Shown here: piece by piece, positions 1,074 to 16,387 of the stretch
How the letters are laid out: each line of letters starts with the position of its first letter
Position numbering within the stretch: position 1 is the first letter of the stretch
Assembly (NCBI RefSeq): GCF_000717655.1
Contig: NZ_JNZY01000066.1
Location: 1 to 19,280 of the forward strand
From: Streptomyces katrae
Lineage (GTDB): Bacteria; Actinomycetota; Actinomycetes; Streptomycetales; Streptomycetaceae
Direction of reading: 5' to 3'
DNA length: 19,280 nt
Position numbers and translations under genes: made by a program
Notes under the pieces: model-generated
Told to the model about the DNA's origin: nothing
Databases searched by the model: none
Seen by the model: the letters and a program-made list of their open reading frames with translations, nothing else

Positions 1074-1110
1074 CCGGCGCCCGCCACCGCCCCGCCACCC
1101 GGCGCCCGCC
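1069..1110. repeat. 17-bp direct repeat
   Basis: GCCACCCGGCGCCCGCC occurs twice, at 1069-1085 and 1094-1110, with a 25-bp period. It fills the gap between the permease stop and the phosphoesterase start and looks like a local duplication. Its position at the phosphoesterase start region means it could affect translation initiation. Confidence 0.7.
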
Positions 1111-1113
1111 CCC

Positions 1114-2316: not shown

Positions 2317-3050
2317 CGTGTTCCCGCCTCCGCCCGCGCCGTGTTCCATGTGTCCGCCACGATCTCCCCGTCCCGGATCCGCACCTGCCGCGGCAGGCTC
2401 GCCGCGATCTCCTGGTCGTGGGTGATCACGGCGATGGTGGCCCCGTCCGCGTTCAGCTCGTGCAGCAGCTCCATCACCGACTGCCCCGACGCCGAGTCCA
2501 GTGCGCCCGTCGGCTCGTCGGCCAGCAGCAGGTCCGGCTCGCCGGCCGCCGCGCGGGCGATCGCCACGCGCTGCTTCTGCCCGCCCGACAGCTCGTGCGG
2601 CCGGTGCTCCATCCTGTCCCCGAGGCCGACCCGCTCCAGCGCCCGCGCCGCCCGGCGGCCGCGCTCGGCGCGCGAGAGTCCGGAGTACAGCAGCCCCTCG
2701 GCGACGTTCGCCTGCGCGCTGATGCCCGGTACGAGGTGGAAGGACTGGAAGACGAAGCCGATATGGCGTGAGCGCAGTGCCGACAGGGCGCGGTCGGACA
2801 GGCTCGCGATGTCGTGCCCGGCGATGGCGACCGCGCCGGCGCTCGGGCGGTCGAGGGTGCCGACGATGTGCAGCAGGGTGGACTTCCCGGAGCCGGACGG
2901 GCCGACGATGGCGAGGAGCTCGCCGTTCAGGACCGTGAGGTCCACCCCGCGCAGGGCCTTGACCCCGCCCGGGTACTCCTTGGTGACGCCCGCCAGCTCC
3001 ACGACGGCGCGCGCGTGCCGGTTCTCTGCGGCGGCCACTGTCGTCGTCAC
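2313..3050 (-). CDS. ABC transporter ATPase, MacB/LolD type
   Basis: This 245-residue nucleotide-binding subunit drives the adjacent permease. All motifs are intact: Walker A GPSGSGKST (about residues 50-58), the Q-loop in FVFQSFHLVPG, signature LSGGQKQR, Walker B LLLADEPTGALD and the H-loop in VITHD. The ADEPTGALDS sequence is characteristic of the MacB/LolD branch. The GTG start at 3050-3048 overlaps the adaptor's stop (GTGA), and its own stop overlaps the permease start (ATGA), so the subunits are probably made in fixed ratio. Confidence 0.95.
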   Translation of the reverse strand: MTTTVAAAENRHARAVVELAGVTKEYPGGVKALRGVDLTVLNGELLAIVGPSGSGKSTLLHIVGTLDRPSAGAVAIAGHDIASLSDRALSALRSRHIGFVFQSFHLVPGISAQANVAEGLLYSGLSRAERGRRAARALERVGLGDRMEHRPHELSGGQKQRVAIARAAAGEPDLLLADEPTGALDSASGQSVMELLHELNADGATIAVITHDQEIAASLPRQVRIRDGEIVADTWNTARAEAGTR

Positions 3051-4159
3051 TGCTTCGGGATCCCCACCTGCATGCCCTCCTTGAGGGCGTCCTCCTTGAC
3101 CTCGACGCGGCCCTGCCCGAACATGCCGAGCTCGACCGGGACGTCACGGACCGCGCCGTTCTCGACGACCTGGACGCCGAAGCCGCCGCCGGACAGCGCG
3201 AGGAGTGCGTTGACCGGTACGGAGAGCACGCCCTTGCGGGTCTCGCCGGTCAGCCGGATCGATACCGGGGACTGGTCCGGGCCCTTGATCTCGGAGGCGT
3301 TGTCGAGGGAGACGCTCACCTCGACCTTCGGCTTCCCGCCACCGCCGCCACCGCCGCCGCCGGACCCGCCCCCGGCGCCGTTCGGGTCGTCCGGGTTCGC
3401 CGTGCTGCCCACCGAGTCGATCTGCCCGGTCGCCTTGCCGCCGCCCGGCAGGTTCACGGTGACCTCGTCGCCGGTCTTCGCCGCGCCCGCCTTGGCCACG
3501 TCCAACTGGAACCGGACCATCCGTTCGGTTCCGGTCAGGGTCAGCACCGGCTTGCCCGGCGTCGGCTCGTCGCCGACCGCCGTGTCGTTCTTCTGGACCC
3601 GCTGCGGGCCGGCCGCGAAGGCGATGTCGTCCTTGCCGACCTCGCCGGTCTCCGCCGCCTTGTGCGCCTTCTGCCAGCGCTTGACCGCCGTCGCCGTGCC
3701 CGCCGTGAAGGTACCGTCCTCCGGGTCGAGCCCGGTCCCGTACCCGAGGGCCTGGAGGTTCCGCTTGAGCTGTCTGACGTCCTCGCCCTTGTCCCCGGTC
3801 TTCATCGGCCGGTACACGGGCGTGCTCCCGTACATCAGCCGCACGGGCTTGCCGTTGACCTCGTACAGCTTCCCGTCCCGTTCGATCGCCGCGCCGGCGC
3901 CGGCGGCCCAGGTCAGCACCCCCGGGCCGCCCGCGGCGAGCTTGCGCTCCTGCGCGTAGCCGAGGGTGCCCTCCACGCTGAGCCCGGAGCTGAGGTCCCC
4001 GCGCGTCACCGGAGCCGTCTGCTGCGGCAGCCCGTCCGCGCGCCGGTCCTTGGAACCGTCCGAGTCCCCCCGCGGCTGGGCCGTCACCGCGTACCCCCCG
4101 CCGGAGACGGCGAGTACGACGGCCAGCGAGCCCAGCAGCCACTTGCCGCGCCGCCTCAC
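3047..4159 (-). CDS. Efflux adaptor with peptidoglycan-binding domain
   Basis: This 370-residue extracytoplasmic adaptor (HlyD/MacA-like) is the partner of the MacB-type ABC pair. A basic N-terminus followed by a hydrophobic helix (residues 7-24) anchors it in the membrane. A PG_binding_1 domain spans about residues 113-180 (GDKGEDVRQLKRNLQALGYG, then DGTFTAGTATAVKRWQ), as expected where a Gram-positive adaptor reaches the wall. Membrane-fusion-type beta segments follow. A glycine run (about residues 263-275) interrupts the second half and is probably a flexible linker. The GTG at 4159 was chosen because it overlaps the upstream lipoprotein's stop (GTGA) and directly precedes the anchor helix. 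Its role in holding the transporter at the wall is inferred from family knowledge. Confidence 0.88.
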   Translation of the reverse strand: MRRRGKWLLGSLAVVLAVSGGGYAVTAQPRGDSDGSKDRRADGLPQQTAPVTRGDLSSGLSVEGTLGYAQERKLAAGGPGVLTWAAGAGAAIERDGKLYEVNGKPVRLMYGSTPVYRPMKTGDKGEDVRQLKRNLQALGYGTGLDPEDGTFTAGTATAVKRWQKAHKAAETGEVGKDDIAFAAGPQRVQKNDTAVGDEPTPGKPVLTLTGTERMVRFQLDVAKAGAAKTGDEVTVNLPGGGKATGQIDSVGSTANPDDPNGAGGGSGGGGGGGGGKPKVEVSVSLDNASEIKGPDQSPVSIRLTGETRKGVLSVPVNALLALSGGGFGVQVVENGAVRDVPVELGMFGQGRVEVKEDALKEGMQVGIPKQ

Positions 4160-4671
4160 GCGGCGTCGCACTTCTTCTGGGCCTGCTCGAAGGCCTTTTC
4201 CTGGCCCTCGGGGATCTGGGTCGCGCTCATCGCGCTGCCGTTGAACTCCGGGTCGGGGATGTTCACGCCGTTGTCCCGCATGCACTTGGCCCACTTCAGG
4301 GCCTTGTCCTTCTGCTCCTGCGACATCTGGCCCGTCCCGGGGGCCTGCAGCCCGCACGCGTCGAAGGCCTTCTTCAGCGCCTCCGGATCCTCGCTGCCCG
4401 AGCCCAGCGTCATGCCGCGCGGGTCCTGGCCGGGCTCCGGGTCGGGCGCGTCCATGCCGTGCTCGCGCAGGCACTTGCGCGTCTTGAGCGCCTTGTCGGC
4501 GTCGGCGCCGCTGGCGGTTCCGCTGCCGCCGCCGCTCGACGCGTTGTTCTCGGTGGAGTCCTCCTTCTTCCCGTCCTTCCCGTCCGAACCGACACCGCCC
4601 GTGCACGCGGTGACGAAGAGGGTCAGCCCGGTGAGGGCCGCGGCCGTGGTCATGGTCATGGATCGCTTCAT
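4156..4671 (-). CDS. Secreted lipoprotein with duplicated Cys-paired repeat
   Basis: This 171-residue lipoprotein has signal sequence MKRSMTMTTAAALTGLTLFV and lipobox VTAC, with Cys23 the probable lipidation site. A low-complexity acidic/Ser/Gly linker follows (24-58). The mature part contains two copies of a motif: KCLREHGMDAPDPE (66-79) and KCMRDNGVNIPDPE (129-142). Each is followed 38-39 residues after its Cys by a second Cys (67/106 and 130/168). As first gene of the efflux operon it may be a substrate-binding or signal-sensing component. I do not know an experimentally defined function. ATG 4671 was chosen because it opens the signal peptide. The SD is weak (AGGG about 9 nt upstream). 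Confidence 0.85.
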   Translation of the reverse strand: MKRSMTMTTAAALTGLTLFVTACTGGVGSDGKDGKKEDSTENNASSGGGSGTASGADADKALKTRKCLREHGMDAPDPEPGQDPRGMTLGSGSEDPEALKKAFDACGLQAPGTGQMSQEQKDKALKWAKCMRDNGVNIPDPEFNGSAMSATQIPEGQEKAFEQAQKKCDAA

Positions 4672-4761
4672 GCGGCCGACCCTGCACGAGAGGCGGGTTT
4701 CGCTTCCCTCTCCGATCTTGCTTATGACGAGGAAATGCGAGATTCCGGTAAAGAGGGCGGC
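4672..4761. promoter_or_regulatory. Divergent promoter region between efflux operon and two-component genes
   Basis: This 90-bp gap separates the divergent lipoprotein and response-regulator genes. It includes an unusually AT-rich stretch (4711-4753, with CTTGCTTATGACGAGGAAAT) in otherwise GC-rich DNA. It must carry the promoters of both transcription units unless transcription starts inside a gene. I could not assign -35/-10 pairs with good spacing on either strand, and no clear direct-repeat operator for the response regulator stands out. Confidence 0.5.
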
Positions 4762-5463
4762 ATGCGAGTTCTGGTGGTGGAGGACGAGGAATTCCTCCGG
4801 GAGATGATCGCCGACGGGCTGCGCCGCGACGCGCTGGCCGTCGACGAGGCGGGCGACGGCCTCGAGGCCCTGCAGCGGCTGCGCCTCGGCGAGTACGACG
4901 TCCTCGTCCTCGACCGCGACCTGCCCGGCCTGCACGGCGACGAGGTCTGCCGGCACGTGGTGCGCGAGCGGCTGCTGACCCGCGTCCTGATGCTGACCGC
5001 CTCCGGGACCGTACGGGACCGGGTCGAAGGGCTCGGCCTCGGCGCCGACGACTACCTGACCAAGCCCTTCGCTTACGACGAGCTCCTCGCCCGCGTCCTG
5101 GCGCTGGGCCGGCGGGCCCGGCCGGCCCTGCCGCCGGTGCTGGATCGCTGCGGGATCGCCGTCGACACGGCCCGCAGGACCGCGACCCGCGACGGGCACC
5201 GGCTCGCGCTGTCGCGCAAGGAGTTCGCCGTGCTGGAGGCACTGCTGCGGGCCGAGGGCGCCGTGCTCGGCAACGACGACCTGATCGAGCAGGTGTGGGA
5301 GGAGGGCACCTCGTACAGCACGAACGCCGTACGGGTGACCCTCAGCAAGCTGCGGGCCAAGCTGGGCGAGCCGCCGCTGATCGAGACCGTGCCGGGCGCG
5401 GGCTACCGGATCACCGCTCCGGCGGCGGGCCCCGGCACCGCCAAGATCGCCGATCCGCGATGA
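4762..5463 (+). CDS. OmpR/PhoB-type response regulator
   Basis: This 233-residue cytosolic transcription factor is paired with the next gene. The receiver domain (1-115) has acidic pocket residues E7/D8, phosphoacceptor Asp51 in VLVLDRDLPG, Thr79 in MLTA and Lys101 in YLTKPF. The C-terminal winged-helix domain (about 128-222) includes LSRKEFAVLEALL, the recognition segment NAVRVTLSKLRAKLG and the wing VPGAGYRI. ATG 4762 is preceded by AAGAGGGCGG as SD and opens exactly at the receiver (MRVLVVEDE). The stop overlaps the kinase start. Because it is divergent from the lipoprotein/MacB operon, that operon is its most likely target (inference). Confidence 0.95.
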   Translation: MRVLVVEDEEFLREMIADGLRRDALAVDEAGDGLEALQRLRLGEYDVLVLDRDLPGLHGDEVCRHVVRERLLTRVLMLTASGTVRDRVEGLGLGADDYLTKPFAYDELLARVLALGRRARPALPPVLDRCGIAVDTARRTATRDGHRLALSRKEFAVLEALLRAEGAVLGNDDLIEQVWEEGTSYSTNAVRVTLSKLRAKLGEPPLIETVPGAGYRITAPAAGPGTAKIADPR

Positions 5464-6725
5464 GAGCAGTGCTCCATTCCGAGCGTGCCCGTCTCACCGC
5501 GCTCTACGGCTCGCTGCTCGTCCTCGCCGGCGGCGGCCTGATCACCCTGATCAACATCCTGCTGCGGGGCGGCCTCTACACCCGCATCAGCGGAGCCGTC
5601 ACCACCGCCGTCCCCGGCACCGCGTTCGAACGCGCCGCCGTCGAAGGCCAACCGCTCAAGGCCGTCCCCGCCCAGCGGCTCCCGCCCGGCGCCGCCGAGC
5701 CCACCCAGGAGCAGCTCCAGACGTGGGCCGTGACCCGCAACCTGTCCTCCGCCGTCGAGTCCGCCACCCTCCACGAGCTGCTGATCGTCTCGCTCATCGC
5801 CCTCGCCGTGTTCGCCGTACCGTCGATCTGGCTGGCCTGGTGGATGGCCGGCCGCGTGCTGCGCCCCGTCGGCGTCATCACCGAAACGGCCCGCCGCCTT
5901 TCGGGGGAGAACCTGCACGAGCGGATCGGCCTCGAGGCCCCGCCCGGCGAGCTCAAGCGTCTGGCCGACACCTTCGACGGCATGCTCGACCGGATGGAGG
6001 GCCTGGTGGGCGCGCAGCGCCGGTTCGCCGCCAACGCCGCCCACGAGCTGCGAACCCCGCTCGCCGTCCAGCGGGCGGCCGCCGAGATCGGGCTGGCGGG
6101 GGACCCGCCGCCGGAGAAGGTGGCCCGGATCCGCTCCAAGCTGATCGGCGTCGCCGACTCCAGCGAGCACCTCATCGAGTCGCTGTTGCTGCTCGCGGTG
6201 TCGGAGGAGGGCCTGGAGACCACGGCCCCGGTGGACCTGGCGGCCCTGGTCGAGGCCGAACTCACGGAGGCCGCCCGGGCCGAGGCGGGCCCGGAGTCCG
6301 GCGCGGGGGCCGGGCGGCCGGGCGTCGTACGGGACCTTGCGCCGCTGGCCGTGACCGGTGACCGGGCGCTGTTGGGCCATCTGGTGCGGAACCTGCTCGG
6401 CAACGCCGTACGGCACAACCGGCCGGGCGGCCGGATCAGCGTGGCGACCTCCGCCGGCGGGGCGCTGACGGTGTCCAACACCGGCCCGGTGATCGACCCC
6501 GCCGACGTACCACGGCTGCTGGAACCGTTCCGGCGGCGGGCCGAACGGCAGCACACCGCGGGCGAGGGTGCGGGCCTCGGGCTCTCCATCGTGGCCTCGG
6601 TCGCGCGGGCGCACGGCGCGAAGCTGGTGGCGCGGGCCAATCCCGCTCCGGGCGGCGGACTGACTGTCAGGGTCCGCTTTCCGGTGGGACCCGCGCCGCT
6701 CCGGCCGCCGCCTCAAGAGTCCTGA
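5460..6725 (+). CDS. Sensor histidine kinase
   Basis: This is a 421-residue membrane kinase. Transmembrane helix 1 is about residues 15-35, an extracytoplasmic loop of about 70 residues spans 36-104, and helix 2 is about 106-129. A HAMP domain (130-183) follows, then an H-box with His195 in ANAAHELRTPLAVQR. The catalytic domain has an N-box (HLVRNLLGNAVRHN), a G1-like VSNTGPVI and a G2 box GEGAGLGLSIV. The G1 box reads N-T-G rather than the usual D-N/T-G, a variation seen in actinobacterial kinases. The ATG at 5460 overlaps the regulator's stop (ATGA). The short loop suggests it senses envelope or small-molecule stress directly. The signal is unknown. Confidence 0.93.
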   Translation: MRAVLHSERARLTALYGSLLVLAGGGLITLINILLRGGLYTRISGAVTTAVPGTAFERAAVEGQPLKAVPAQRLPPGAAEPTQEQLQTWAVTRNLSSAVESATLHELLIVSLIALAVFAVPSIWLAWWMAGRVLRPVGVITETARRLSGENLHERIGLEAPPGELKRLADTFDGMLDRMEGLVGAQRRFAANAAHELRTPLAVQRAAAEIGLAGDPPPEKVARIRSKLIGVADSSEHLIESLLLLAVSEEGLETTAPVDLAALVEAELTEAARAEAGPESGAGAGRPGVVRDLAPLAVTGDRALLGHLVRNLLGNAVRHNRPGGRISVATSAGGALTVSNTGPVIDPADVPRLLEPFRRRAERQHTAGEGAGLGLSIVASVARAHGAKLVARANPAPGGGLTVRVRFPVGPAPLRPPPQES

Positions 6726-6751
6726 ATGTTCCGATGTGTACCGTCGGAGGC

Positions 6752-7711
6752 ATGAGCAAGCACCCCCGCGCCCGCTCCCGTAGTCCCCGCACGTACCGCG
6801 CCGTCCGCTCGCCCCGGCGGGTCGCCATCGCCGCCGCCCTGGGCCTGTTGGCCTTCGGGGCCGGATGGGCGTACACGGCCCAGGACGACCACCGCGGCGC
6901 CACGGCCCAGGCCCGGACCGGAGACCGCCCTGGGGGCGCGGCCGCCGTGGTCGGCGCCGCCAAGCCCACCGGGCCCGCCAAGACCACCGGCTCCGCCGAC
7001 CCCGCAGGCGATGCCCGCGCCGCCCGCGAGGTACGCGGCGCCCCCGGTGCACCGGCGGCATCCGGCGCTCCGGGAGCTCCGGGAGCCTCCGGCGCCACCG
7101 CAGCCCCGGACGCCCCCGCCCACGGCCTCGCCGACGTCAGCGAGGAGACCCTCGCCAGGATCCCGGCCAGCTCCCGCCAGCTCCTCCTCGTCACCGGCAA
7201 GGGGAGGGACTCCTCGGAGTCCACGGCGACCCTCTACAGCCGGCAGGCAGCCGGAGCCGACTGGGTCCGGACCACCGAGAGCTGGCCCGCGCACAACGGC
7301 GCCGGCGGCTGGAACTCGTCCGAACGCGAGGACGGGGACCTCACCACACCCGTGGGCGTGTTCACCCTGAGCGACGCCGGCGGGCTGCTGGCGAAGCCGC
7401 CGGGCACGAAGTTCCCGTACGACCACAACCGGCTCTTCGTCCCCACCGGCCGGGGCGTGAACGGTGAGTCCCTCGCGGGTGCGTTCGAATACGTCATCGC
7501 GATCGACTACAACCGCCGGACGGGGGTCTCCCCGCTGGACCTGGTCAAGCCGGAGGGCGAGGACAAGGGCGGCGGCATCTGGCTCCACGTCGACCACAAC
7601 GGCCCCTCGCAGGGCTGCATCGGCATCTCGAAGGAGGCCATGAAGAAGCTCCTGACCACCCTGGACCCGGCGGCGAAGCCGGTCATCGTGATGGGACCGG
7701 CAGGCTTCTGA
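6752..7711 (+). CDS. L,D-transpeptidase (YkuD fold)
   Basis: This 319-residue protein has a basic N-terminus, a signal-anchor helix (about 24-43) and a long Ala/Pro/Gly-rich linker (45-125) with GAPGAP-type repeats. The YkuD domain follows in the C-terminal half. The active-site stretch IWLHVDHNGPSQGCIGIS (about 276-293) has His279, His282 and nucleophile Cys289. It reads S-Q-G-C instead of the classical S-H-G-C. It probably forms or edits 3-3 peptidoglycan cross-links or attaches proteins to the wall. It lies 26 bp after the kinase, so it may be co-transcribed and under envelope-stress control. Start is uncertain: GGAGG (6746-6750) sits only one base before ATG 6752, and an in-frame ATG at 6734 has no SD. 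Confidence 0.8.
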   Translation: MSKHPRARSRSPRTYRAVRSPRRVAIAAALGLLAFGAGWAYTAQDDHRGATAQARTGDRPGGAAAVVGAAKPTGPAKTTGSADPAGDARAAREVRGAPGAPAASGAPGAPGASGATAAPDAPAHGLADVSEETLARIPASSRQLLLVTGKGRDSSESTATLYSRQAAGADWVRTTESWPAHNGAGGWNSSEREDGDLTTPVGVFTLSDAGGLLAKPPGTKFPYDHNRLFVPTGRGVNGESLAGAFEYVIAIDYNRRTGVSPLDLVKPEGEDKGGGIWLHVDHNGPSQGCIGISKEAMKKLLTTLDPAAKPVIVMGPAGF

Positions 7712-7798
7712 CCGGCCGGCTCCCGACCGGCTCCTGACCGGCCGGCTTCTGGCCGGCCGGGGTCAGACCGCGAGACCGGCCGGTTCCCGACCGGCCGG
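7712..7798. repeat. CCGGCCGG octamer array, possible bidirectional terminator
   Basis: Five perfect CCGGCCGG palindromes lie at 7712, 7738, 7753, 7776 and 7791, plus a CCGG at 7727. Several sit in near-repeats of the form CGACCGGCCGG or CTGACCGGCCGG. The array lies between the convergent transpeptidase and membrane-protein genes and runs into the last codons of the latter. It can fold into many alternative GC hairpins and probably terminates transcription from both sides (inference). Confidence 0.65.
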
Positions 7799-8413
7799 TG
7801 CGGCGGCCACCCGCCGCCCCCTCAGCAGCAGCCCGATGTACGCCAGGTCGAAGACGCTGCACATGACGCCGAGCCCGAGGATGAACGGCGAGTCCTCGAG
7901 GACCCCGAAGAGCAGCGTCGGGGCGAGCGTCCCGAGCCACTTCGCGACGGCGATCACGAGGGACTGCCCGCGCGGCCCGCACCGGTCGGCGTAGAGGGCG
8001 ATGAACAGCCCGGACATCAGCAGGTTCTGCAGGAACGCCGAGTAGCGGCTCGCGTCGTGCGTCCCGAAGTGCGCGACGAACAGCCACTGCACGGCGAAGC
8101 CGGTGCCGAACACGAGCACGCTCCACGCCGCGAAGAGCGGCCGTGTCACGAACGCGGGCAGCTCGGCCCGCCCGAAGCGCAGGTACGTCCAGATGATCGC
8201 GATGTCGGCGACCGCCCACACGACGTTGACGATCCCCTGCGCGGAGACCCCGCTCATGAACTCGCCCGCGGCGTACGTCGCCTCCCACGCGAAGTTCAGC
8301 GCGAGCGCGGCCACCGGCATCGCATACGTCCGGTCCCGCAGCCCGACCCGGATCGCCTCCACGTACACGACGGTCCACGCCACCCCGCTGACCAGCGTCA
8401 GAAAGAGATCCAC
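7763..8413 (-). CDS. Seven-helix membrane protein, Pyr4/DmtA terpene cyclase-like
   Basis: This protein of about 216 residues has seven predicted hydrophobic helices and almost no soluble domain. Two features recall the transmembrane terpene cyclases (fungal Pyr4/PaxB, bacterial DmtA). One is an N-x-x-W-E motif in LNFAWEATYA (Glu44). The other is an Asp in the last helix, SVFDLAYIGLL (Asp189). In Pyr4, one Glu in that region and one C-terminal Asp are reported as essential. An internal VVWAVADIAIIWTYLRFG segment also fits. Such enzymes cyclise prenyl-derived chains in the membrane. No prenyltransferase or epoxidase lies nearby, so activity is unproven. GTG 8413 (AGGGTG upstream) or TTG 8431 (GGGAGGGG upstream) are both plausible starts. 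The C-terminal tail is encoded by the CCGGCCGG repeats. It could instead be an uncharacterised membrane protein family. Confidence 0.55.
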   Translation of the reverse strand: MDLFLTLVSGVAWTVVYVEAIRVGLRDRTYAMPVAALALNFAWEATYAAGEFMSGVSAQGIVNVVWAVADIAIIWTYLRFGRAELPAFVTRPLFAAWSVLVFGTGFAVQWLFVAHFGTHDASRYSAFLQNLLMSGLFIALYADRCGPRGQSLVIAVAKWLGTLAPTLLFGVLEDSPFILGLGVMCSVFDLAYIGLLLRGRRVAAAPAGREPAGLAV

Positions 8414-8493
8414 GCGCGGCACCCTAGCCAACGCGCCCCTCCCGGCACATCCCCCGCGCACGGGCCACCCGGCGCGTGGCCGGGTCGAACCCC

Positions 8494-8522
8494 TTGCCTG
8501 ACGGTCCGTCAGCTACGACGAT
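8494..8522 (+). promoter_or_regulatory. Candidate promoter with operator between -35 and -10
   Basis: TTGCCT (8494-8499) and GACGAT (8517-8522) are spaced by 17 bp upstream of the first oxidoreductase gene. The hexamers are only moderate matches. The perfect palindrome at 8498-8512 fills the spacer, the position expected for a repressor site. Confidence 0.4.
8498..8512. promoter_or_regulatory. Operator palindrome CTGACGGTCCGTCAG
   Basis: This is a perfect 15-bp palindrome (7-1-7) in the divergent gap between the terpene-cyclase-like gene and the oxidoreductase gene, 82 bp before the latter's ATG. The same CTGACG-N3-CGTCAG pattern recurs at 10430-10446 and imperfectly at 10370-10384. Palindromes of this size are typical of TetR-family dimers. 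The regulator is not in the window. Confidence 0.7.
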
Positions 8523-8594
8523 GGCCCCCGGCGCCGGCGGGACGCGCATCGGCAGCCGAAGACGTGGGCGACAGACGAAGCGAGGCGGTGCGGC

Positions 8595-9545
8595 ATGGCG
8601 CGCGTGTTTGCGGAGGGCCGGCTGGTCTACGGGATGCAGCTCCCGATCCAGTCGCAGAGCACCATCTACGCCGAGCCCTGGGAGGCCGCGGCCACCGCCG
8701 CCGACCTCGCCGAGGTGGCGCGGGCCGCCGACCGGGCCGGCTTCGGGTACGTCGCCACCTGCGACCACGTCGCCATCCCGCGCCGGCTCGCCGGACCGAT
8801 GAGCACCGTCTGGTACGACCCGGTGGCCACCCTCGCCTTCCTCGCCGGGATCACCGAGCGCGTACGCCTGCTGAGCCACGTCGCGATCCCGGGCCTGCGC
8901 CACCCGCTGGTCAGCGCCAAGCAGTACGCCACCCTCGACCACCTCTCGGGCGGCCGGCTGATCCTCGGCGTCGGCGCCGGCCACGTGCAGGAGGAGTTCG
9001 AGGTCCTCGGCGTCGACTTCGCCCGCCGCGGAGCCGTCCTCGACGAGACCCTGGACGCGCTGCGCGCCGCCCTCGGGCCCGAGGAGTACCCGGAGTTCGA
9101 GGGCGAACTGTTCTCCTTCAAGGACCTCGGCCAGCTGCCCCGCCCCGCCCAGGCCCGCATCCCCGTCTGGGTGGGCGGCTCCTCGCCCGCCGCCGTGCGC
9201 CGGGCCGCCGTGCGCGGCGACGGCTGGCTCCCGCAGGGCGACCCGCGGGACAAGCTGCCGGGCCAGATCGCCCGGATCAAGGAGCTCCGCGCCGAGGCCG
9301 GGGTCGCGGACCCCATCGAGTTCGGCGCGATCACCGAGGCGCTGTACGTCGGCGAGCCCGGCTGGGACACCGGCCGCCGCGCCCTCACCGGCAAGGCGGA
9401 GGTGCTCGCCGAGTCCCTCCGCGCGTACCGGGCGCTCGGCGTGGACCAGATCCAGGTCCGTTTCCGCAGCCGCGAGCGCGCCGAACTGACCGACCAGATC
9501 GCCGCTTTCGGGGCCGAGGTCGGCCCGCTTCTCAACGACCAGTGA
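8595..9545 (+). CDS. LLM-class F420-dependent oxidoreductase (TIGR03619-like)
   Basis: This 316-residue TIM-barrel enzyme belongs to the luciferase-like monooxygenase superfamily. Typical elements are the cofactor-pocket segment CDHVAIP (56-62), SAKQYATLDHLSGGRLILGV (107-126), VGAGHVQEEFEVLGVDFARR (126-145) and WVGGSSPAAVRRAA. The GVGAGHVQEEFEVLGV signature matches the actinobacterial F420-type subgroup (Rv2161c-like), so F420 rather than FMN is likely (inference). It catalyses hydride transfer or oxygenation of an unknown substrate. ATG 8595 has GCGAGG about 9 nt upstream. It is followed 20 bp later by an SDR on the same strand, and its promoter region carries the shared operator. Confidence 0.88.
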   Translation: MARVFAEGRLVYGMQLPIQSQSTIYAEPWEAAATAADLAEVARAADRAGFGYVATCDHVAIPRRLAGPMSTVWYDPVATLAFLAGITERVRLLSHVAIPGLRHPLVSAKQYATLDHLSGGRLILGVGAGHVQEEFEVLGVDFARRGAVLDETLDALRAALGPEEYPEFEGELFSFKDLGQLPRPAQARIPVWVGGSSPAAVRRAAVRGDGWLPQGDPRDKLPGQIARIKELRAEAGVADPIEFGAITEALYVGEPGWDTGRRALTGKAEVLAESLRAYRALGVDQIQVRFRSRERAELTDQIAAFGAEVGPLLNDQ

Positions 9546-9565
9546 CAACGACTAGGAGTACGGGC

Positions 9566-10351
9566 ATGGGCAAGCTGGACGGGCGCGTCGTCGTCATCAC
9601 GGGTGCGGCGCGCGGCCAGGGCGAGCAGGAAGCCCGCCTCTTCGCCGCCGAGGGGGCCAAGGTGCTCCTCGGCGACGTGCTGGACGAGCAGGGCGCCGCC
9701 GTCGCCAAGGAGATAGGCGAGGACCGCGCCCGGTACGTACGGATGGACGTGAGCCGGGAGGAGGACTGGGCGGCCGCCGTGGCCGCCGCCAAGGAGGCCT
9801 TCGGCCCGGTCGACGGCCTGGTCAACAACGCGGGCATCCTGCGCTTCAACGAGCTGGTCTCGACCCCGCTGGAGGAGTTCCAGCAGCTGGTCCAGGTCAA
9901 CCAGGTCGGCGCCTTCCTCGGCATCAAGACCGTAGCCCCCGAGATCGAGGCGGCCGGCGGCGGCACCATCGTCAACACCTCCTCGTACACCGGCCTGACG
10001 GGCATGGCGTACGTCGGCTCGTACGCGGCGACCAAGGCGGCGATCGTCGGCCTGACCCGGGTGGCCGCGCTGGAGCTCGCTGCCAAGGGCATCCGGGTCA
10101 ACGCGATGTGCCCGGGCGCCGTGGACACCCCGATGGCCAACCCCGGCCTGCTGGACCCGGCCAACATGAGCGACGAGGCCCGGGACGCGATGGCGGAGCT
10201 CTACCAGCGGGTCGTGCCGATGGGGCGGGTGGGCCGGCCCGACGAGGTGGCCAAGCTGGCCCTGTTCCTGAGCAGCGAGGACTCCTCGTACATCACCGGC
10301 CAGCCGTTCGTGATCGACGGCGGGTGGATGGCGGGCGTCAGCATCCTCTAG
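9566..10351 (+). CDS. SDR oxidoreductase, 3-alpha/20-beta-HSD-like
   Basis: This 261-residue classical short-chain dehydrogenase is complete. It has the Rossmann motif TGAARGQG (12-19), Asp37 after strand 2 (predicting NAD(H) preference), DV at 61-62, NNAG (87-90), Asn112, catalytic Ser139/140, Tyr153 and Lys157 (YAATK), and the C-terminal VIDGGW. Overall spacing and the LLGDVLDEQGAAVAKEIG stretch recall 3-alpha/20-beta-hydroxysteroid dehydrogenase of Streptomyces. It is likely to interconvert a secondary alcohol and ketone on a hydrophobic or cyclic substrate (inference). The SD TAGGAG precedes ATG 9566 well. It lies 20 bp after the upstream oxidoreductase and probably shares its mRNA. Confidence 0.92.
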   Translation: MGKLDGRVVVITGAARGQGEQEARLFAAEGAKVLLGDVLDEQGAAVAKEIGEDRARYVRMDVSREEDWAAAVAAAKEAFGPVDGLVNNAGILRFNELVSTPLEEFQQLVQVNQVGAFLGIKTVAPEIEAAGGGTIVNTSSYTGLTGMAYVGSYAATKAAIVGLTRVAALELAAKGIRVNAMCPGAVDTPMANPGLLDPANMSDEARDAMAELYQRVVPMGRVGRPDEVAKLALFLSSEDSSYITGQPFVIDGGWMAGVSIL

Positions 10352-10363
10352 ATCTTCCCTCCA

Positions 10364-10384
10364 CCCCATCTGATGGGGCGTCAG
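10364..10384. promoter_or_regulatory. Overlapping palindromes, second operator copy
   Basis: CCCCATCTGATGGGG (10364-10378) is a perfect 7-1-7 palindrome. It overlaps CTGATGGGGCGTCAG (10370-10384), which matches the shared CTGACG-N3-CGTCAG operator with one change in the first arm. The GCGTCA at 10378-10383 also pairs with TGACGC at 10389-10394. The element lies just after the SDR stop, so the first palindrome may also act as a weak terminator. Confidence 0.5.
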
Positions 10385-10387
10385 GTA

Positions 10388-10416
10388 TTGACGCTCCCGC
10401 TTCCGCGGTGGAACAG
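10388..10416 (+). promoter_or_regulatory. Candidate -35 region between two operators
   Basis: TTGACG (10388-10393) is a good -35 hexamer. The expected -10 position (10411-10416, GAACAG) is a poor match, so the exact promoter is uncertain. It sits between the operator copies at 10370-10384 and 10430-10446, whose centres are 61 bp apart, close to six helical turns. Confidence 0.35.
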
Positions 10417-10429
10417 TCGACTCATCGAA

Positions 10430-10446
10430 TCTGACGACACGTCAGA
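10430..10446. promoter_or_regulatory. Operator palindrome TCTGACGACACGTCAGA
   Basis: This is a perfect palindrome with 7-bp arms and a 3-bp spacer, 22 bp upstream of the TTG start of the second oxidoreductase. It has the same half-site and spacing as the 8498-8512 operator, so one regulator probably controls both promoters. Confidence 0.7.
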
Positions 10447-10468
10447 AGTCAAAGGACGGTGAACCCCC

Positions 10469-11590
10469 TTGGAATTCGGGCTCTTCGTGCAGGGATACGT
10501 GCCTGAGGCGCGGTCCAAGGTCGACCCCGAGGCAGAGCACAAGGCGCTGGTCGAGGAGACCGAGTACGTCATCCAGGCCGACAAGTCCGGCTTCAAGTAC
10601 GCCTGGGCCTCCGAGCACCACTTCCTGGAGGAGTACTCCCACCTGTCGGCGAACGAGGTGTTCCTCGCCTACCTCGCCCACGCCACCGAGCGCATCCACC
10701 TCGGCTCCGGCATCTTCAACCCGCTCGCCCCGGTCAACCACCCGGTCAAGGTGGCCGAGAAGGTCACCATGCTCGACCACCTCTCCAAGGGGCGCTTCGA
10801 GTTCGGCACCGGGCGGGGCGCCGGCAGCCACGAGATCCTCGGGTTCCTGCCCGGCATCACGGACATGAACGCCACCAAGGAGATCTGGGAAGAGACCATC
10901 GCCGAGTTCCCCAAGATGTTCCTCCAGGAGGAGTACGAGGGGTTCCAGGGCAAGCACTGGTCGCTGCCGCCGCGGAAGATCTTCCCCAAGCCGTACGGCA
11001 AGGCCCACCCGGCCATGTGGTACGCCGCGGGCTCCCCGTCCTCGTACGCGATGGCTGCGAAGAAGGGCCTCGGCGTCCTCGGGTTCAGCGTCCAGAAGGT
11101 CTCCGACATGGAGTGGGTGCTGGAGCAGTACAAGACGGCCATCCAGGAGGCCAAGGCCATCGGCGCGTTCGTCAACGACAACGTGATGGTCACCTCCACC
11201 GCGATATGTGCCGAGACGCACGACAAGGCGGTGGAGATCGCGGTCAACGCGAACATGAACCGCTTCCAGTCGCTGGTCTTCCGTTACCACGACACCTTCC
11301 CGCGGCCCGAGGCGATCCCGCAGTGGCCCGAAACGCTGCCCGAGTACAACGCGGAGATCATCGAGCTGCTGATCGCCGAGGAACTGCTGATCTGCGGCGA
11401 CCCGTCCGAGGTGCTCGCGCAGTGCAAGCGCTGGGAGCAGGCGGGCGCCGACCAGCTGTCGTTCGGCCTGCCGACCGGCGTCTCGTACGAGGACACGATG
11501 ACCACCATCAAGCTCATCGGCGAGCACGTGATCCCGAAGATCGACACGGACCCGGTCCACCGCACGACGCGCTTCCGCCAGGCCGTCTGA
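10469..11590 (+). CDS. LLM-class flavin-dependent oxidoreductase
   Basis: This 373-residue luciferase-like enzyme is from a different subgroup than the one at 8595. It has the EHHF motif (49-52) typical of FMN-dependent bacterial luciferase-like proteins, GSGIFNPLAPVNHPVKVAEK (79-98), MLDHLSKGRFEFGTGRGAG (101-119) and a full-length C-terminal region. It probably works as a flavin-dependent monooxygenase needing a partner reductase, and none is in the window. The TTG at 10469 opens at the first beta strand (MEFGLFVQGY). AAAGGA (10451-10456) lies 12 nt upstream, a rather long spacing. Two operators upstream suggest tight repression. A role in Baeyer-Villiger-like or hydroxylating chemistry with the SDR is inference. 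Confidence 0.88.
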   Translation: MEFGLFVQGYVPEARSKVDPEAEHKALVEETEYVIQADKSGFKYAWASEHHFLEEYSHLSANEVFLAYLAHATERIHLGSGIFNPLAPVNHPVKVAEKVTMLDHLSKGRFEFGTGRGAGSHEILGFLPGITDMNATKEIWEETIAEFPKMFLQEEYEGFQGKHWSLPPRKIFPKPYGKAHPAMWYAAGSPSSYAMAAKKGLGVLGFSVQKVSDMEWVLEQYKTAIQEAKAIGAFVNDNVMVTSTAICAETHDKAVEIAVNANMNRFQSLVFRYHDTFPRPEAIPQWPETLPEYNAEIIELLIAEELLICGDPSEVLAQCKRWEQAGADQLSFGLPTGVSYEDTMTTIKLIGEHVIPKIDTDPVHRTTRFRQAV

Positions 11591-11641
11591 CCCGGCGGGG
11601 GAACAGGGGCGGCGTCTTCCCGGACCGCCGTCCCGAAACCG

Positions 11642-11670
11642 GCCCCGGCCGGGCGGCCACCGGCCGGGGC
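11642..11670 (+). terminator. GC hairpin after second oxidoreductase
   Basis: GCCCCGGCCGG pairs perfectly with CCGGCCGGGGC across a 7-nt loop (11-bp stem), 51 bp after the stop codon. There is no T-tract, as is common for Streptomyces terminators. It could end or attenuate transcription before the amidohydrolase. Confidence 0.55.
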
Positions 11671-11705
11671 GCGGGGCTCGGTCCTGCGCGTGCGGCGCCG
11701 TTGCG

Positions 11706-11858
11706 GGGGCTCCGCCCCCGAACCCCCGCGCCTCAAACGCCGACGGGGCCGGATGCGGCTGATCCGTGCTTGCGCCTGCTGCCCGGCGGGCCGGTTGCCG
11801 CGCAGCGGCAGATCCAGGCCCGCCTACGTGCGAGGCGCGGGGTCCGGGGCGGAGCCCC
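11706..11858. repeat. Inverted pair of Streptomyces GGGGCTCCGCCCC repeats
   Basis: The left arm (11706-11734) reads GGGGCTCCGCCCCCGAACCC then CCGCGCCTC. The right arm (11832-11858) is its reverse complement with small indels. The arms flank 97 bp and could form a long stem. The left arm continues into CAAACGCCGACGGGGCCGG, the usual extension of this genus-wide intergenic repeat. The function of these repeats is not known to me. Confidence 0.7.
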
Positions 11859-11907
11859 AGGACGACGGCGCGCGCCGCACCACGTACCGCAACGCAGAAG
11901 GGGAGTC

Positions 11908-13647
11908 ATGCTCGACCACCTGATCAAAGGAGCCACCGTCGTGGACGGGACGGGCGGCCCCGCGTTCACCGCCGACGTCGGGATCCGGGACGGGCGGATC
12001 GCCGTCATCGGCGAGCCGGGCACGGTCACGGAGGAGGCCCGGACCGACGAGGACGCGCACGGGCTCGTCCTGTGCCCCGGCTTCGTCGACCCCCACACGC
12101 ACTACGACGCCCAGCTCTTCTGGGACCCGTACGCCACCCCCTCCATGAACCACGGCGTCACCACCGTCGCCGGCGGCAACTGCGGGTTCACCCTCGCCCC
12201 GCTCAACCCGGCCCGCCCGGAAGACGCCGACTACACCCGCCGCATGATGAGCAAGGTCGAGGGCATGGCCCTCAAGGCCCTCGAGGAAGGCGTCGACTGG
12301 ACCTGGTCCGGCTTCGGCGAGTACCTCGACGCCCTCGAAGGGCGGATCGCCGTCAACGCGGGCTTCATGGTCGGCCACTGCGCACTGCGCCGGCACGTCA
12401 TGGGCGCCGACGCCGTCGGCGGGCAGCCCACCCCCGAGCAGATGCAGCAGATGCTCGACCTCTTCCACGACGCCATGAACGCCGGCGCCTGGGGCCTGTC
12501 CACCACCCAGTCCGCCACCCACTCCGACGGTGACGGCGCCCCCGTGGCCTCCCGCCACGCCAAGCCCGCCGAGCTCATCGCGCTATCCAAGGCCGTCGCC
12601 GAACACGAAGGCACCCAGCTCGAAGCCATCGTCGCCGGCTGCCTCGACCAGTTCGCCGACGAGGAGATCGACCTCTTCGTCGAGATGAGCGCAGCCGCCG
12701 GCCGCCCGCTGAACTGGAACGTCCTCACCATCGACGCCGCCGTCCCCGAACGGGTGCCGCGCCAGCTCGTACCGAGCGAACGCGCCCGCAAGGCCGGCGG
12801 CCGCATCGTCGCGCTCACCATGCCGATCCTCACCCCCATGAACATGTCGCTCGGCACCTTCTGCGCGCTCAACCTGATCCCGGGCTGGGGCGAGATCCTC
12901 GGCCTGCCCGTGCCCGAGCGGATCGCGAAGCTGCGCGACGCCGGCGTACGGGCGCAGATGCTGCGCCGCGCCGACAGCAAGGAGGCCGGGGTCTTCCGGC
13001 GCCTCGCCGACTTCGGCCGCTACGTCATCGGGGACACGTACAGCAAGGAGAACGAGGGCCTGTCCGGCCGGGTCGTGGGCGACATCGCCGCCGAGCGCGG
13101 CCAAGACCCCTTCCAGTGCCTGGTCGAGATCTGCGCCAACGACGACCTGCGTACGGTGCTCTGGCCCATGCCGACCGACAACGACCCGGCGAGCTGGGCG
13201 CTGCGCGCCGAGACCTGGCAGCACGAGGACGTCATGCTCGGCGGCTCCGACGCCGGCGCGCACCTGGACCGCATGTGCGGGGCCCCGTACACCACCCGCT
13301 TCCTCGGGGACTGCCTGCGCGGCCGCAAGCTGGTGCCGCTGGAGCAGGCGGTGAAGATGCTCACCGACGACCCGGCGCAGCTGTTCGGGCTGCGCGAACG
13401 AGGACGGATCGCCGAGGGGTTCCACGCGGACCTGGTGCTGTTCGACCCGGAGCGGATCGAGGCCGGTCCGGCGACGCTCGTGCACGACCTGCCCGGCGAC
13501 AGCCCGCGGCTGGACGCCCGGGCGATCGGGATCGTGTCCGTACGCGTCAACGGCGTGGAGACCATCCGCGACGACGAGGTGACGGGTGCGATCCCCGGCA
13601 TCGTGCTCCGCTCGGGCCGCGACACGAGGACGGTGAGCACGCGTTGA
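11908..13647 (+). CDS. Amidohydrolase, N-acyl-D-amino-acid deacylase-like
   Basis: This 579-residue amidohydrolase-superfamily enzyme resembles D-aminoacylase. It has an N-terminal beta-sandwich strand (LIKGATVVDGTGG), metal motif DPHTHYD with His63/His65, Cys92 in AGGNCGFT (the bridging Cys of D-aminoacylases) and Asp448 in GGSDAGAH. A C-terminal sandwich holds ADLVLFDP. No histidine occurs between residues 234 and 438, where the two central zinc-ligand histidines of D-aminoacylase (His220 and His250) should fall. It may use a single metal or a modified site. Its substrate could be an amide, lactam or lactone (inference). ATG 11908 has a strong SD, AGGGGAG. Its stop overlaps the aldehyde dehydrogenase start (TTGA). 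Confidence 0.85.
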   Translation: MLDHLIKGATVVDGTGGPAFTADVGIRDGRIAVIGEPGTVTEEARTDEDAHGLVLCPGFVDPHTHYDAQLFWDPYATPSMNHGVTTVAGGNCGFTLAPLNPARPEDADYTRRMMSKVEGMALKALEEGVDWTWSGFGEYLDALEGRIAVNAGFMVGHCALRRHVMGADAVGGQPTPEQMQQMLDLFHDAMNAGAWGLSTTQSATHSDGDGAPVASRHAKPAELIALSKAVAEHEGTQLEAIVAGCLDQFADEEIDLFVEMSAAAGRPLNWNVLTIDAAVPERVPRQLVPSERARKAGGRIVALTMPILTPMNMSLGTFCALNLIPGWGEILGLPVPERIAKLRDAGVRAQMLRRADSKEAGVFRRLADFGRYVIGDTYSKENEGLSGRVVGDIAAERGQDPFQCLVEICANDDLRTVLWPMPTDNDPASWALRAETWQHEDVMLGGSDAGAHLDRMCGAPYTTRFLGDCLRGRKLVPLEQAVKMLTDDPAQLFGLRERGRIAEGFHADLVLFDPERIEAGPATLVHDLPGDSPRLDARAIGIVSVRVNGVETIRDDEVTGAIPGIVLRSGRDTRTVSTR

Positions 13648-15116
13648 GCGAGCCCCTGCAGCAGAAGCTGTACATCGGCGGCGAGTGGGTGGAGCCCGCC
13701 GCCGGGCACTACGAGGTGGTCAACCCGGCGGACGAATCGGTGGTCGGGCTCGCGCCCGAGGCCTCGCGCGCCCAGGTCGAGGAGGCGGCGCGCGCGGCGG
13801 CGGAGGCCTTCGAGGCCTGGTCCCGTACGGCCCCCGAGACGCGGGCGGCCATCCTCGACCGGGCCGCGGACATCATGCAGCGCGAGTACGAGCCGTGGGC
13901 GGCCCTCGCCCGCGCCGAGACGGGCGCACCGACCGGCATCGCGCGCGGGATGCAGGTCGGGGTCGGGGTCTCGCGCTTCCGGCGGTACGCGAAGGGCGCC
14001 CTCGAGCCGGTGGAGCGCGGGCTGCCGCCGCAGGTCACCGAGGCCGGCCCGATGGGGAGGGCGAGCATCCTGGGGGCGCTGGAGGTGCGCCAGCCGGTCG
14101 GCGTGGTCACCTGCATCACCTCCTACAACAACCCGTGGGCGAACCCGGCGGGCAAGGTGGCCCCGGCCCTGGCCATGGGCAACACGGTGGTGGTGAAGCC
14201 GGCCCCGCAGGATCCGCTGTCGGTGTTCAAGATGGCCGGGGCGCTGCACGAGGCGGGCGCACCGGCGGGCGTGGTGAACGTGGTCTGCGGTGCCTCGGCC
14301 GGGGTCGGCGAGGCCGCGGTGGACTCCCCGTACGTGGACATGGTGTCGTTCACCGGCTCCACGGGCGTCGGACAGCGCATCGCGGAGGTCTGCGGCCGCT
14401 CGATGAAGCGGCAGCTGATGGAGCTCGGCGGCAAGGGCGCGGCGATCGTCTTCGAGGACGCCGACCTGGACGCGGCCGTGACGGGGATCGGCACCACCTT
14501 CTCCTTCTACTCCGGCCAGATCTGCACGGCGCCGACGCGGGTGATCGTGCACCGGTCGGTGTACGAGCAGCTGGTCGAGAAGCTGACGGGCTACCTGGCC
14601 TTCATGAAGGTCGGCGACCCGGCGGCGGCGGGCACGGTGGTCGGGCCGGTGATCTCGGCCGCGCACCGCGACCGCGTGGAGTCGTACGTCGAGCTGGGGC
14701 GCAAGGAGGGCGCGCGGATCGCGTACGGCGGCGAGCGGCCGGTGGTCGGGGACGGCCGCGGCTTCTACGTGGCGCCGACGCTGCTGGTGGACTGCACGAA
14801 CGACATGAGGGTGGTCCGGGAGGAGATCTTCGGGCCGGTGGTCGTGGTCGTGCCGTTCGACGGGGACGAGGACGAGGCGGTCCGGCTGGCCAACGACAGC
14901 GACTTCGGCCTGCTGAGCTACGTGTGGTCCGGGGACGCGGCGCGCGCCTTCCGGGTGGCGCGGCGGCTGCGGGCGGGCGGGGTCGGCGTGAACACGATCG
15001 GCCGGAACATGGAGGCCCCGTTCGGGGGCTTCAAGCGCTCGGGCGTCGGGCGGGACGTGGGCTCGTACGCGCTGCACGCGTACAGCGAGGTGCAGTCGAT
15101 CGTCTGGGCGGGCTGA
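13644..15116 (+). CDS. Aldehyde dehydrogenase family protein
   Basis: This 490-residue NAD(P)-dependent aldehyde dehydrogenase has intact motifs: YNNPW with the oxyanion Asn (about 162), Lys185 in VVKPAP, the FTGSTGVG nucleotide loop (236-243), catalytic Glu260 in MELGGKG and nucleophile Cys294 in GQICTAPTR. The C-terminal APFGGFKRSGVGRD follows. It would oxidise an aldehyde to the acid. The TTG at 13644-13646 overlaps the amidohydrolase stop, so the two are translationally coupled and probably act in sequence. No better in-frame start exists nearby, and the protein begins at the usual ALDH N-terminus (LYIGGEWV). It is the last gene of the plus-strand block, followed by a strong hairpin. Confidence 0.93.
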   Translation: MSEPLQQKLYIGGEWVEPAAGHYEVVNPADESVVGLAPEASRAQVEEAARAAAEAFEAWSRTAPETRAAILDRAADIMQREYEPWAALARAETGAPTGIARGMQVGVGVSRFRRYAKGALEPVERGLPPQVTEAGPMGRASILGALEVRQPVGVVTCITSYNNPWANPAGKVAPALAMGNTVVVKPAPQDPLSVFKMAGALHEAGAPAGVVNVVCGASAGVGEAAVDSPYVDMVSFTGSTGVGQRIAEVCGRSMKRQLMELGGKGAAIVFEDADLDAAVTGIGTTFSFYSGQICTAPTRVIVHRSVYEQLVEKLTGYLAFMKVGDPAAAGTVVGPVISAAHRDRVESYVELGRKEGARIAYGGERPVVGDGRGFYVAPTLLVDCTNDMRVVREEIFGPVVVVVPFDGDEDEAVRLANDSDFGLLSYVWSGDAARAFRVARRLRAGGVGVNTIGRNMEAPFGGFKRSGVGRDVGSYALHAYSEVQSIVWAG

Positions 15117-15131
15117 GCCGGACCGCCGGGA

Positions 15132-15161
15132 GCGGGCGCGGGGCCCCGGCCCCGCGCCCGC
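15132..15161. terminator. Strong bidirectional hairpin terminator
   Basis: GCGGGCGCGGGGCC pairs perfectly with GGCCCCGCGCCCGC across two bases, a 14-bp nearly all-GC stem. It is 15 bp after the aldehyde dehydrogenase stop and 45 bp beyond the end of the convergent lipoprotein gene. It probably terminates both. Confidence 0.8.
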
Positions 15162-15206
15162 GCACGTGATGCCCAGCGGTTCACTGCGCGGTTCACTCCC
15201 CGCGGA

Positions 15207-15842
15207 TCACTTCTCCGAGAGGTAGTCCGTGAGGACGCACCCCTTCACGAGGGCCGGCTCCTTGCGGTAGCCGCTCGGCGGGCTGAAGTCCGGGTGGCAG
15301 TTCAGGACGACCATCCCGCTCTTCGCGCTCAGCATGGCGGTCATCGTGTCCGTGCTCCGGGAGCCGACGGCGAAGTCCTGACCGATGACGAAGCCCATGT
15401 TGACGTGCCGCTTCGGGTGTTCGGCGTACTCCTTGTCGACTTCGGCCTTGAACGCGGCCTGGAAGGCCTTCGGGTCCTTGATGAGGAAGATCCCGGTGTC
15501 ACCGCGGTCGTTGCACCATCCGCGCTCGGTCACGGAGTACGCCGCCCCGTACTTGTCGTCCGGGCCCTCTCCCGGGTCGTAGCCCTCCTGGGCCTTGGAG
15601 ACCTCGGTGCACTTGGTGTACCTGCCCACGATGCGGGTGGCCTCGGCCATGGAGCCCGCCTTGACCAGCCCCTTGAAGCCGAGTCCGTTGCCCTTCTTGG
15701 GCGCTCCGCCGTCGCCGCCTGCACCGATGCCGCCGACCGAGGCGATGTCCCCGGCGTACGCGCCGTCGTCGCTCCCGCAGGCGGTGAGGGTGAGGAGCGC
15801 GGTGAGGGTGGTGGCGGTGGCGATGACTGTTCTGGTGCGCAT
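15207..15842 (-). CDS. Putative lipoprotein, unknown function
   Basis: This 211-residue protein has a classic lipoprotein signal: MRTRTVIATATTLTALLTLT with lipobox L-T-A-C, Cys22. A Gly-rich linker (about 36-48) follows. The globular part has further cysteines in YTKCTEV, GWCNDRG, LNCHPDF and VKGCVLTD, which could form two disulfides outside the membrane. I do not recognise a characterised family. ATG 15842 was chosen because it opens the signal peptide and has GGGGGA about 10 nt upstream. A well-spaced promoter with an inverted repeat lies upstream. It stands alone and is convergent with the aldehyde dehydrogenase. Confidence 0.85.
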   Translation of the reverse strand: MRTRTVIATATTLTALLTLTACGSDDGAYAGDIASVGGIGAGGDGGAPKKGNGLGFKGLVKAGSMAEATRIVGRYTKCTEVSKAQEGYDPGEGPDDKYGAAYSVTERGWCNDRGDTGIFLIKDPKAFQAAFKAEVDKEYAEHPKRHVNMGFVIGQDFAVGSRSTDTMTAMLSAKSGMVVLNCHPDFSPPSGYRKEPALVKGCVLTDYLSEK

Positions 15843-15871
15843 GCGCGGATGATCCCCCGTGTCGATGACCT

Positions 15872-15912
15872 TGATCGTCGGGACTCTAGAGCGACGATCA
15901 TGTCCGCGACAA
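15872..15912 (-). promoter_or_regulatory. Promoter and 9-bp inverted repeat of lipoprotein gene
   Basis: On the minus strand, TTGTCG (15912-15907) and TAGAGT (15888-15883) are separated by 18 bp, a good vegetative sigma match. The perfect inverted repeat TGATCGTCG / CGACGATCA (15872-15880 and 15892-15900, 11-bp spacer) covers the -10 region and part of the spacer, as a repressor operator would. Confidence 0.55.
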
Positions 15913-16095
15913 ACGGCCGCCCGAAAAGTCACACGGGAAACTTCCACCCCTGAACCACTGCGCCCTCGCGGCCCCGGACCGCCCCCCGGCCGGAGGCCGC
16001 GGGCGTTGCGGACCCGCGGCGCCGTGGCGCACGGGCCGTCACCCCAAAGTGCCGCCGGGCGGTGACCGGGACACCGGCGGGTCGTTCTGCACGGC

Positions 16096-16383: not shown

Positions 16384-16387
16384 CCGG

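Follow-up and report, generated by a model that had tools for sequence, protein, structure and literature searches.

The window analyzed here is a 19,280-nucleotide stretch of Streptomyces katrae DNA (RefSeq assembly GCF_000717655.1, contig NZ_JNZY01000066.1, positions 1 to 19,280), and our subject is a short palindrome that stands before genes of an oxidoreductase block and is a candidate operator of a TetR-type regulator. The block begins with LLM1 (8595–9545, +), an F420-dependent oxidoreductase of the luciferase-like monooxygenase (LLM) class (TIGR03619 over cut-off; PF00296). It continues with a short-chain dehydrogenase (SDR; 9566–10351, +; PF13561 and PF00106), the luciferase-like monooxygenase LLM2 (10469–11590, +; PF00296), which has a TTG start, AMH3 (11908–13647, +), an Amidohydro_3 family amidohydrolase by its domain match, and an aldehyde dehydrogenase (ALDH; 13644–15116, +) whose start overlaps the preceding stop. 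Neither AMH3 nor ALDH has an operator of its own.

A previous sequence-only reading had reported two perfect palindromes and a third, imperfect copy, each upstream of a luciferase-like gene, and all three were recovered at those places. The operator upstream of LLM1 (8498–8512, no strand assigned) is the exact palindrome CTGACGGTCCGTCAG with a central GTC; it lies 83 bp ahead of LLM1 and 76 bp from a divergent gene at 7763–8422. The LLM2 promoter carries a proximal operator 24 bp ahead of the gene (10431–10445, likewise unstranded), the exact CTGACGACACGTCAG within the 17-bp palindrome TCTGACGACACGTCAGA (10430–10446), and a distal operator (10370–10384, unstranded), CTGATGGGGCGTCAG, with a single mismatch. 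Base composition would give 0.002 exact sites in the window (19.3 kb) and 0.9 in the genome, and the probability of two or more in the window is about 2e-6, which bears out the claim that chance is an unlikely source. Only exact and near-exact sites carry signal, because allowing up to three mismatches yields 17 matches in the window, no more than in its shuffles (mean 21.2).

To place the sites genome-wide, we scanned the 8.58 Mb assembly (151 contigs) against the reversed pattern as control, with gene positions taken from a purpose-made GC-frame gene caller. The genome contains 13 exact sites versus 0 in the control, 35 versus 4 for the 13-mer core, and 109 versus 31 at up to one mismatch, so that about one third of the one-mismatch sites are expected to be chance. 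None of the 13 exact sites lies wholly within a called gene, and each has a gene start at a distance of 13–98 bp. Two of them (C18:102008 and C55:17566) extend over the final four bases of the adjacent called gene and with them over its stop codon.

The neighbors of the exact sites were assigned with Pfam and NCBIfam. LLM oxidoreductases stand at the window's LLM1 and LLM2 and on contigs C18 and C2; acyl-CoA synthetases stand on C19 (twice) and on C16, where the best match is the steroid-22-oyl-CoA synthetase CasI, below its cut-off. Contig C72 contributes an acyl-CoA dehydrogenase paired with a thiolase, and ChsH2-like proteins occur next to a thiolase on C55 and next to a DoxX-like protein on C19. 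An FMO-like flavoprotein and a flavin reductase are also among the neighbors, as are Amidohydro_2 proteins on C19 and C79. The site at C18:115225 precedes a protein with no Pfam or NCBIfam family match over cut-off. Among 20 further TGACGNNNCGTCA places examined, 4 lie within called genes and several are distant from gene starts, and many of them therefore look like chance; some fit, with one ahead of an acyl-CoA dehydrogenase (C3), one ahead of a short-chain dehydrogenase (C36) and a pair ahead of a periplasmic-binding-protein gene (C4).

The site before LLM2 is conserved throughout its orthologues. In the best 80 of at least 589 relatives, taken from named records, a site lies within 200 bp upstream of the gene in 80/80 loci, 75 of them with an exact copy and 5 with one-mismatch copies only. 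In Streptomyces, then, the motif is neither scattered inside genes (0/13) nor missing upstream of orthologous genes, the two outcomes that the sequence-only reading had named as counting against its proposal. Two or more upstream sites are kept in 63/80 orthologues, which supports the imperfect copy at 10370; the spacing between the two sites is 60–64 bp in 46 of these 63, 27 bp in five and 45–77 bp in the other twelve. When the loci are aligned on the proximal site, the half-site columns carry 1.3–2.0 bits, the three spacer columns 0.1–0.4 bits, and the adjoining A/T positions about 1.2–1.8 bits.

The LLM2 promoter has a recognizable arrangement. A predicted -35 element, TTGACG (10388–10393, +), begins 3 bp past the end of the distal operator, and a putative -10 element, AACAGT (10412–10417, +), follows after 18 bp. 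A TTG[AC]C lies 42–46 bp before the proximal operator in 63/80 orthologues, and TTG[AC]CN followed after 17 or 18 bp by NACAGT precedes it in 60/80 (17 bp in 55, 18 bp in 5). By this assignment, made from sequence, the proximal operator would follow closely on the predicted transcription start. Each TetR subunit would recognize one CTGACG half-site. On the LLM2 promoter, a dimer bound just ahead of the -35 and a second one just past the start would enclose the core promoter, about six DNA turns apart on nearly the same face of the DNA, where they could block RNA polymerase. LLM1 has a single site, which falls within its likely promoter region.

Another reading of the same geometry is that the TetR protein binds these sites and either activates transcription or has a dual role. 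In its favor, the distal site at LLM2 ends 3 bp short of TTGACG, a position where some regulators recruit polymerase, and the 60–64 bp spacing is common; however, the proximal operator falls beyond the predicted start, and exact sites 13–98 bp from start codons occupy the usual place of a repressor. We regard an activating or dual role as quite unlikely.

Conservation at the other genes of the block follows operon structure. In the counts for LLM1, SDR, AMH3 and ALDH, loci without the gene, or with its upstream region off the contig, are omitted. An upstream site precedes LLM1 in 42/76 testable loci (18 exact, 24 with one mismatch only). In 33 of the other 34, LLM1 lies directly behind an Amidohydro_2 gene (AmHyd2) whose own promoter has an exact site, and one locus lacks that gene; conservation at LLM1 is thus only seemingly partial, since in the AmHyd2-LLM1 operon the site is found at the AmHyd2 promoter. 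Specifically, AmHyd2 occurs in 61 loci, and once 3 are dropped, 58/58 testable promoters carry a site (57 exact). The SDR gene is present at 76/80 LLM2 loci and has a site at its start in 12/76. As negative controls, the downstream genes AMH3 (within 300 bp upstream) and ALDH have an upstream site in 0/78 and 0/70 testable orthologues, respectively, which argues that the sites mark operon starts. Additionally, in the LLM1 promoters of loci L114–L193 we observed site pairs about 40–44 bp apart in several species, unlike the 60–64 bp of LLM2.

The sequence-only reading had placed a single TetR-type regulator outside the window. Our candidate is a gene on another contig of the same assembly (G000:C72:11544-12188), whose product matches PF00440 (TetR_N) and, in its C-terminal part, PF19352, both over cut-off, as does its orthologue in family f14. 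Two sites, an exact one and one with a single mismatch, stand 1.7–1.9 kb away from it. In three relatives (G013, G093 and G036), the window block, the AmHyd2/SARP pair of C79, the TetR gene with the acyl-CoA dehydrogenase and thiolase of C72, and the C19 genes form one contiguous stretch of 45–70 kb, which has the TetR gene inside and many operons preceded by exact or one-mismatch sites; we infer that the assembly under study is merely broken across this cluster. Exact sites within 50 kb of the TetR gene, counted in the four genomes with complete site lists, number 6/15 in G013, 9/16 in G093, 5/18 in G036 and 4/15 in G096, with 0.13–0.19 expected in each. The orthologue is present in 101/101 sampled Streptomyces genomes (66–100% identity), which hold 2–32 sites each (control 0–3), and the recognition region S52–F60 (SPATFYQYF) is invariant in 26 aligned TetRs, hand-picked from 240 listed relatives plus the query.

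Other candidate regulator genes were considered but not retained. The response regulator, the sensor kinase and the HxlR gene present in the window itself are near only 1–2 of the 80 LLM2 orthologues (flanks up to 10 kb). On contig C2, at about 111.7–112.4 kb (L044), a TetR gene of PF17925, perhaps KstR-like, adjoins aldehyde dehydrogenase-like and ferredoxin-like genes; its one-mismatch site lies inside the 5' coding region, and this TetR was set aside as the regulator.

The link between this TetR and the site extends beyond Streptomyces. In a class-wide sample of 246 genomes, the TetR was found at E<=1e-15 in 46 (22 Streptomyces and 24 others). Among the non-Streptomyces genomes, at least four exact sites occur in 16/24 with the TetR versus 4/200 without it (P 2.8e-15), and leaving out Sporichthyaceae, 11/19 TetR genomes still hold at least four (P 8e-11; both by Fisher's test with genomes treated as independent). 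Within family f14, the figures are 7/7 with the TetR and 1/5 without. Moreover, in families f14 and f12 a site lies at the TetR gene itself, within 50 bp of its aligned start or overlapping it, in 6/7 and 1/1 loci, respectively (2 exact, 5 with one mismatch); four of these eight loci had been inspected before the count was made. In f18 genomes with 49–53% identity, a one-mismatch site lies 229–265 bp upstream of the TetR in 6/6, and the true TetR start may be further upstream there. In f13, the Sporichthyaceae, 1/5 loci have a site at the TetR.

In families f14 and f12, the TetR adjoins genes for an enoyl-CoA hydratase, two CoA_trans (PF01144) proteins, an NMO/FabK-like protein and IpdE2 (below its cut-off), which we take, from sequence, to be echA20-, ipdA-, ipdB-, ipdC- and ipdE2-like, and one-mismatch sites stand ahead of echA20-like genes in G113 and G203. 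Because these TetR genes (L238–L241) adjoin echA20/ipdA/ipdB/ipdC-like genes and have a site at their start, C/D-ring steroid degradation in these genomes may be under the control of a TetR distinct from KstR2.

We assign the site to the PF19352 TetR because of its clustering around the gene, the co-occurrence of the two across the class, the sites at the f14, f12 and f18 TetR genes and the invariant SPATFYQYF. It is highly likely, on this comparative evidence, that the palindromes are operators of one dimeric PF19352 TetR repressor that controls a conserved Streptomyces catabolic cluster together with outlying genes. In this picture the sites, their conservation and their linkage to the TetR gene are computed results; the promoter elements are predicted from sequence, and binding, repression as opposed to activation, and the ligand are inferred. 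The previous proposal of a single TetR-type regulator encoded outside the window thereby gains a likely candidate, which lies within the same cluster as the window block in three relatives and at whose own start sites are found in f14 and f12. The regulated set had been taken to be the oxidoreductase block; the block is included, but the set is wider, as the same repressor would control about a dozen promoters of the 45–70 kb cluster plus outlying genes. The products of the cluster would comprise acyl-CoA synthetases, acyl-CoA dehydrogenases, a thiolase, ChsH2-like proteins, LLM oxidoreductases and amidohydrolases, and the probable role of the cluster is the breakdown of complex lipids, steroid-like or other. 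The repressor may leave the DNA on binding an intermediate of the pathway, probably an acyl-CoA; such an inducer is suggested by the neighboring acyl-CoA and steroid-type enzymes, by analogy with KstR2 and its effector HIP-CoA. In Streptomyces the substrate may be something other than a steroid, since in the excerpted account of PMC4810484, 55 of 57 Streptomyces genomes lacked the steroid pathway.

The cluster encodes a further regulator that has to be weighed, and the sites might instead be operators of it, namely the SARP-type protein whose gene diverges from that of the C79 amidohydrolase, or of a second TetR. The SARP gene shares its intergenic site with AmHyd2 and is present at 50/80 LLM2 loci. 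Against this, SARPs usually bind direct repeats, and a site lies at the TetR start in f14 and f12, where no SARP was noticed among the called genes (no profile search was made). We consider a regulator other than the PF19352 TetR improbable.

Several observations weigh against the assignment to the PF19352 repressor and deserve to be set out together. The SARP-type gene just mentioned is itself one, given its frequency in the cluster. In Streptomyces, the TetR gene itself lacks a site: at 30 of the 101 loci, the 1.5 kb around it contained two one-mismatch matches, neither at its promoter. Outside Streptomyces, most sites at the TetR have one mismatch, and none was found at the TetR in three f18/g35 genomes (33–35% identity), in G121, in the f14 genome G214 or in G130, where a stop interrupts the TetR frame. 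Fewer than four sites occur in 8/24 non-Streptomyces genomes with the TetR, and 4/22 Streptomyces of the class-wide sample have 1–3. Conversely, G244, the f14 exception (68% complete), has 10 sites, and the TetR was not found in it. Repression as such is assumed from the position of the sites. Lastly, the motif in Sporichthyaceae lies mostly outside promoters, unlike in Streptomyces.

This last group shows a very different distribution. Five Sporichthyaceae genomes (G112, judged Sporichthya polymorpha, with loci L219–L233, L246–L265 and L279–L298; G134, judged S. brevicatena; G151, G166 and G181) contain 109–218 exact copies each (control 0–1), and their TetR orthologue keeps the same recognition region. 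In S. polymorpha, 36 of 135 sites were classed, a non-random set entirely from the first 1.68 Mb. Of these, 17 are intragenic (13 of them in one frame) and 9 take in stop codons, namely both stops of a convergent pair at 5 sites and one stop at 4. A further 3 fall between convergent genes, 4 are otherwise intergenic and 3 are near a start. A giant regulon was rejected as an explanation, as only 3/36 copies are near a gene start. In 400 kb of evenly spaced sequence from the same genome there were 4 sites, 2 of them at convergent ends, versus 10 expected from 135 per 5.5 Mb (reversed pattern 0). The 63 of 135 sites with a central A or T, mapped genome-wide, leave gaps of which the largest is about 390 kb; no terminus gap is proven by this map, in which the skew sampling is weak.

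Two readings are raised by these copies. One is that a pathway operator has turned into a chromosome-wide DNA marker, for nucleoid occlusion, organization or termination, bound by the orthologous TetR. We offer this only tentatively, as a rather doubtful possibility; if true, it would be a natural case of an operator becoming a signal of genome architecture. The Sporichthyaceae copies would allow the spread of an operator through a genome to be studied. The other is that the palindrome is a non-regulatory repeat, such as an iterated palindrome or an RNA hairpin, as may hold in Sporichthyaceae, where 17/36 copies lie inside genes and 9 contain stop codons. Sites overlapping the adjacent stop codon are also found in the window genome, at 2/13 (L016:7009-7023 and L020:7567-7581). 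Yet none of the 13 exact sites there stands inside a called gene, all are close to gene starts, and all 80 LLM2 promoters keep the site, so for the Streptomyces sites such a repeat is extremely improbable.

The proposed system resembles several known regulators. KstR2 is described, in the portions of PMC6593523 and PMC5380842 drawn on here, as a TetR repressor of the steroid C/D-ring genes with HIP-CoA as effector. The likeness is that of a TetR repressor of an acyl-CoA pathway, with the echA20-, ipdA/ipdB-, ipdC- and ipdE2-like genes beside the f14/f12 TetR. None of the 47 PDB chains matched by our TetR profile (E<=0.01) is labeled KstR2, a comparison made by labels only. The KstR2 operator is built on CAAG/CTTG, unlike the CTGACG/CGTCAG found here. 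A second parallel is the Rv0767c-type TetR of Mycobacterium sp. VKM Ac-1817D, where, in the excerpted text of PMC6593523, a palindromic 'motif X' precedes 14 operons, the majority of which are induced by sterols; the excerpt of PMC10312376 shows GAC and GTC to be abundant in Rv0767c sites. Here too a TetR goes with a palindromic motif before many operons, a likeness of description, as motif X appears in PMC6593523 only as a figure.

SlmA and EthR show sequence likeness to the candidate. SlmA, a nucleoid occlusion factor with the TetR fold, is the TetR's best NCBIfam match, far below cut-off; the profile matches SlmA chains at E 1.3e-4, and 1 of 120 listed Streptomyces relatives is so named (P0042). 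The difference lies in the sites, which in Streptomyces are, as exact copies, few and near gene starts, and only Sporichthyaceae have many scattered ones. EthR, also a TetR protein, is the closest solved relative by sequence (PDB, profile E 7e-9), the match being mainly in the N-terminal half, and it has another operator and other targets.

No paper describing this operator or this TetR was found in the literature searched, with subscription journals and figure-only motifs outside the search, and among the matches listed for the motif strings none concerned actinomycete regulation. The proposed TetR–operator regulon is new, while its kind, a TetR regulator with local and outlying operators, is already known. 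A TetR gene present in 101/101 sampled Streptomyces genomes thereby gains a concrete candidate operator, promoter geometry and regulon, the latter linked to genes that resemble steroid-type acyl-CoA catabolism in other actinomycete families, and a cluster of obscure substrate becomes directly testable through its repressor and the 15-mer.

Two minor observations concern genes at the margin of the system. The gene divergent from LLM1 (7763–8422, -) belongs to the Pyr4-like transmembrane terpene cyclase family (PF25129, E 3e-23) and is present at only 3/80 LLM2 loci. On contig C4, two core sites 33 bp apart (L032; C4:42396 and 42429) lie upstream of a periplasmic-binding-protein gene (PF13458), which probably belongs to a transport operon.

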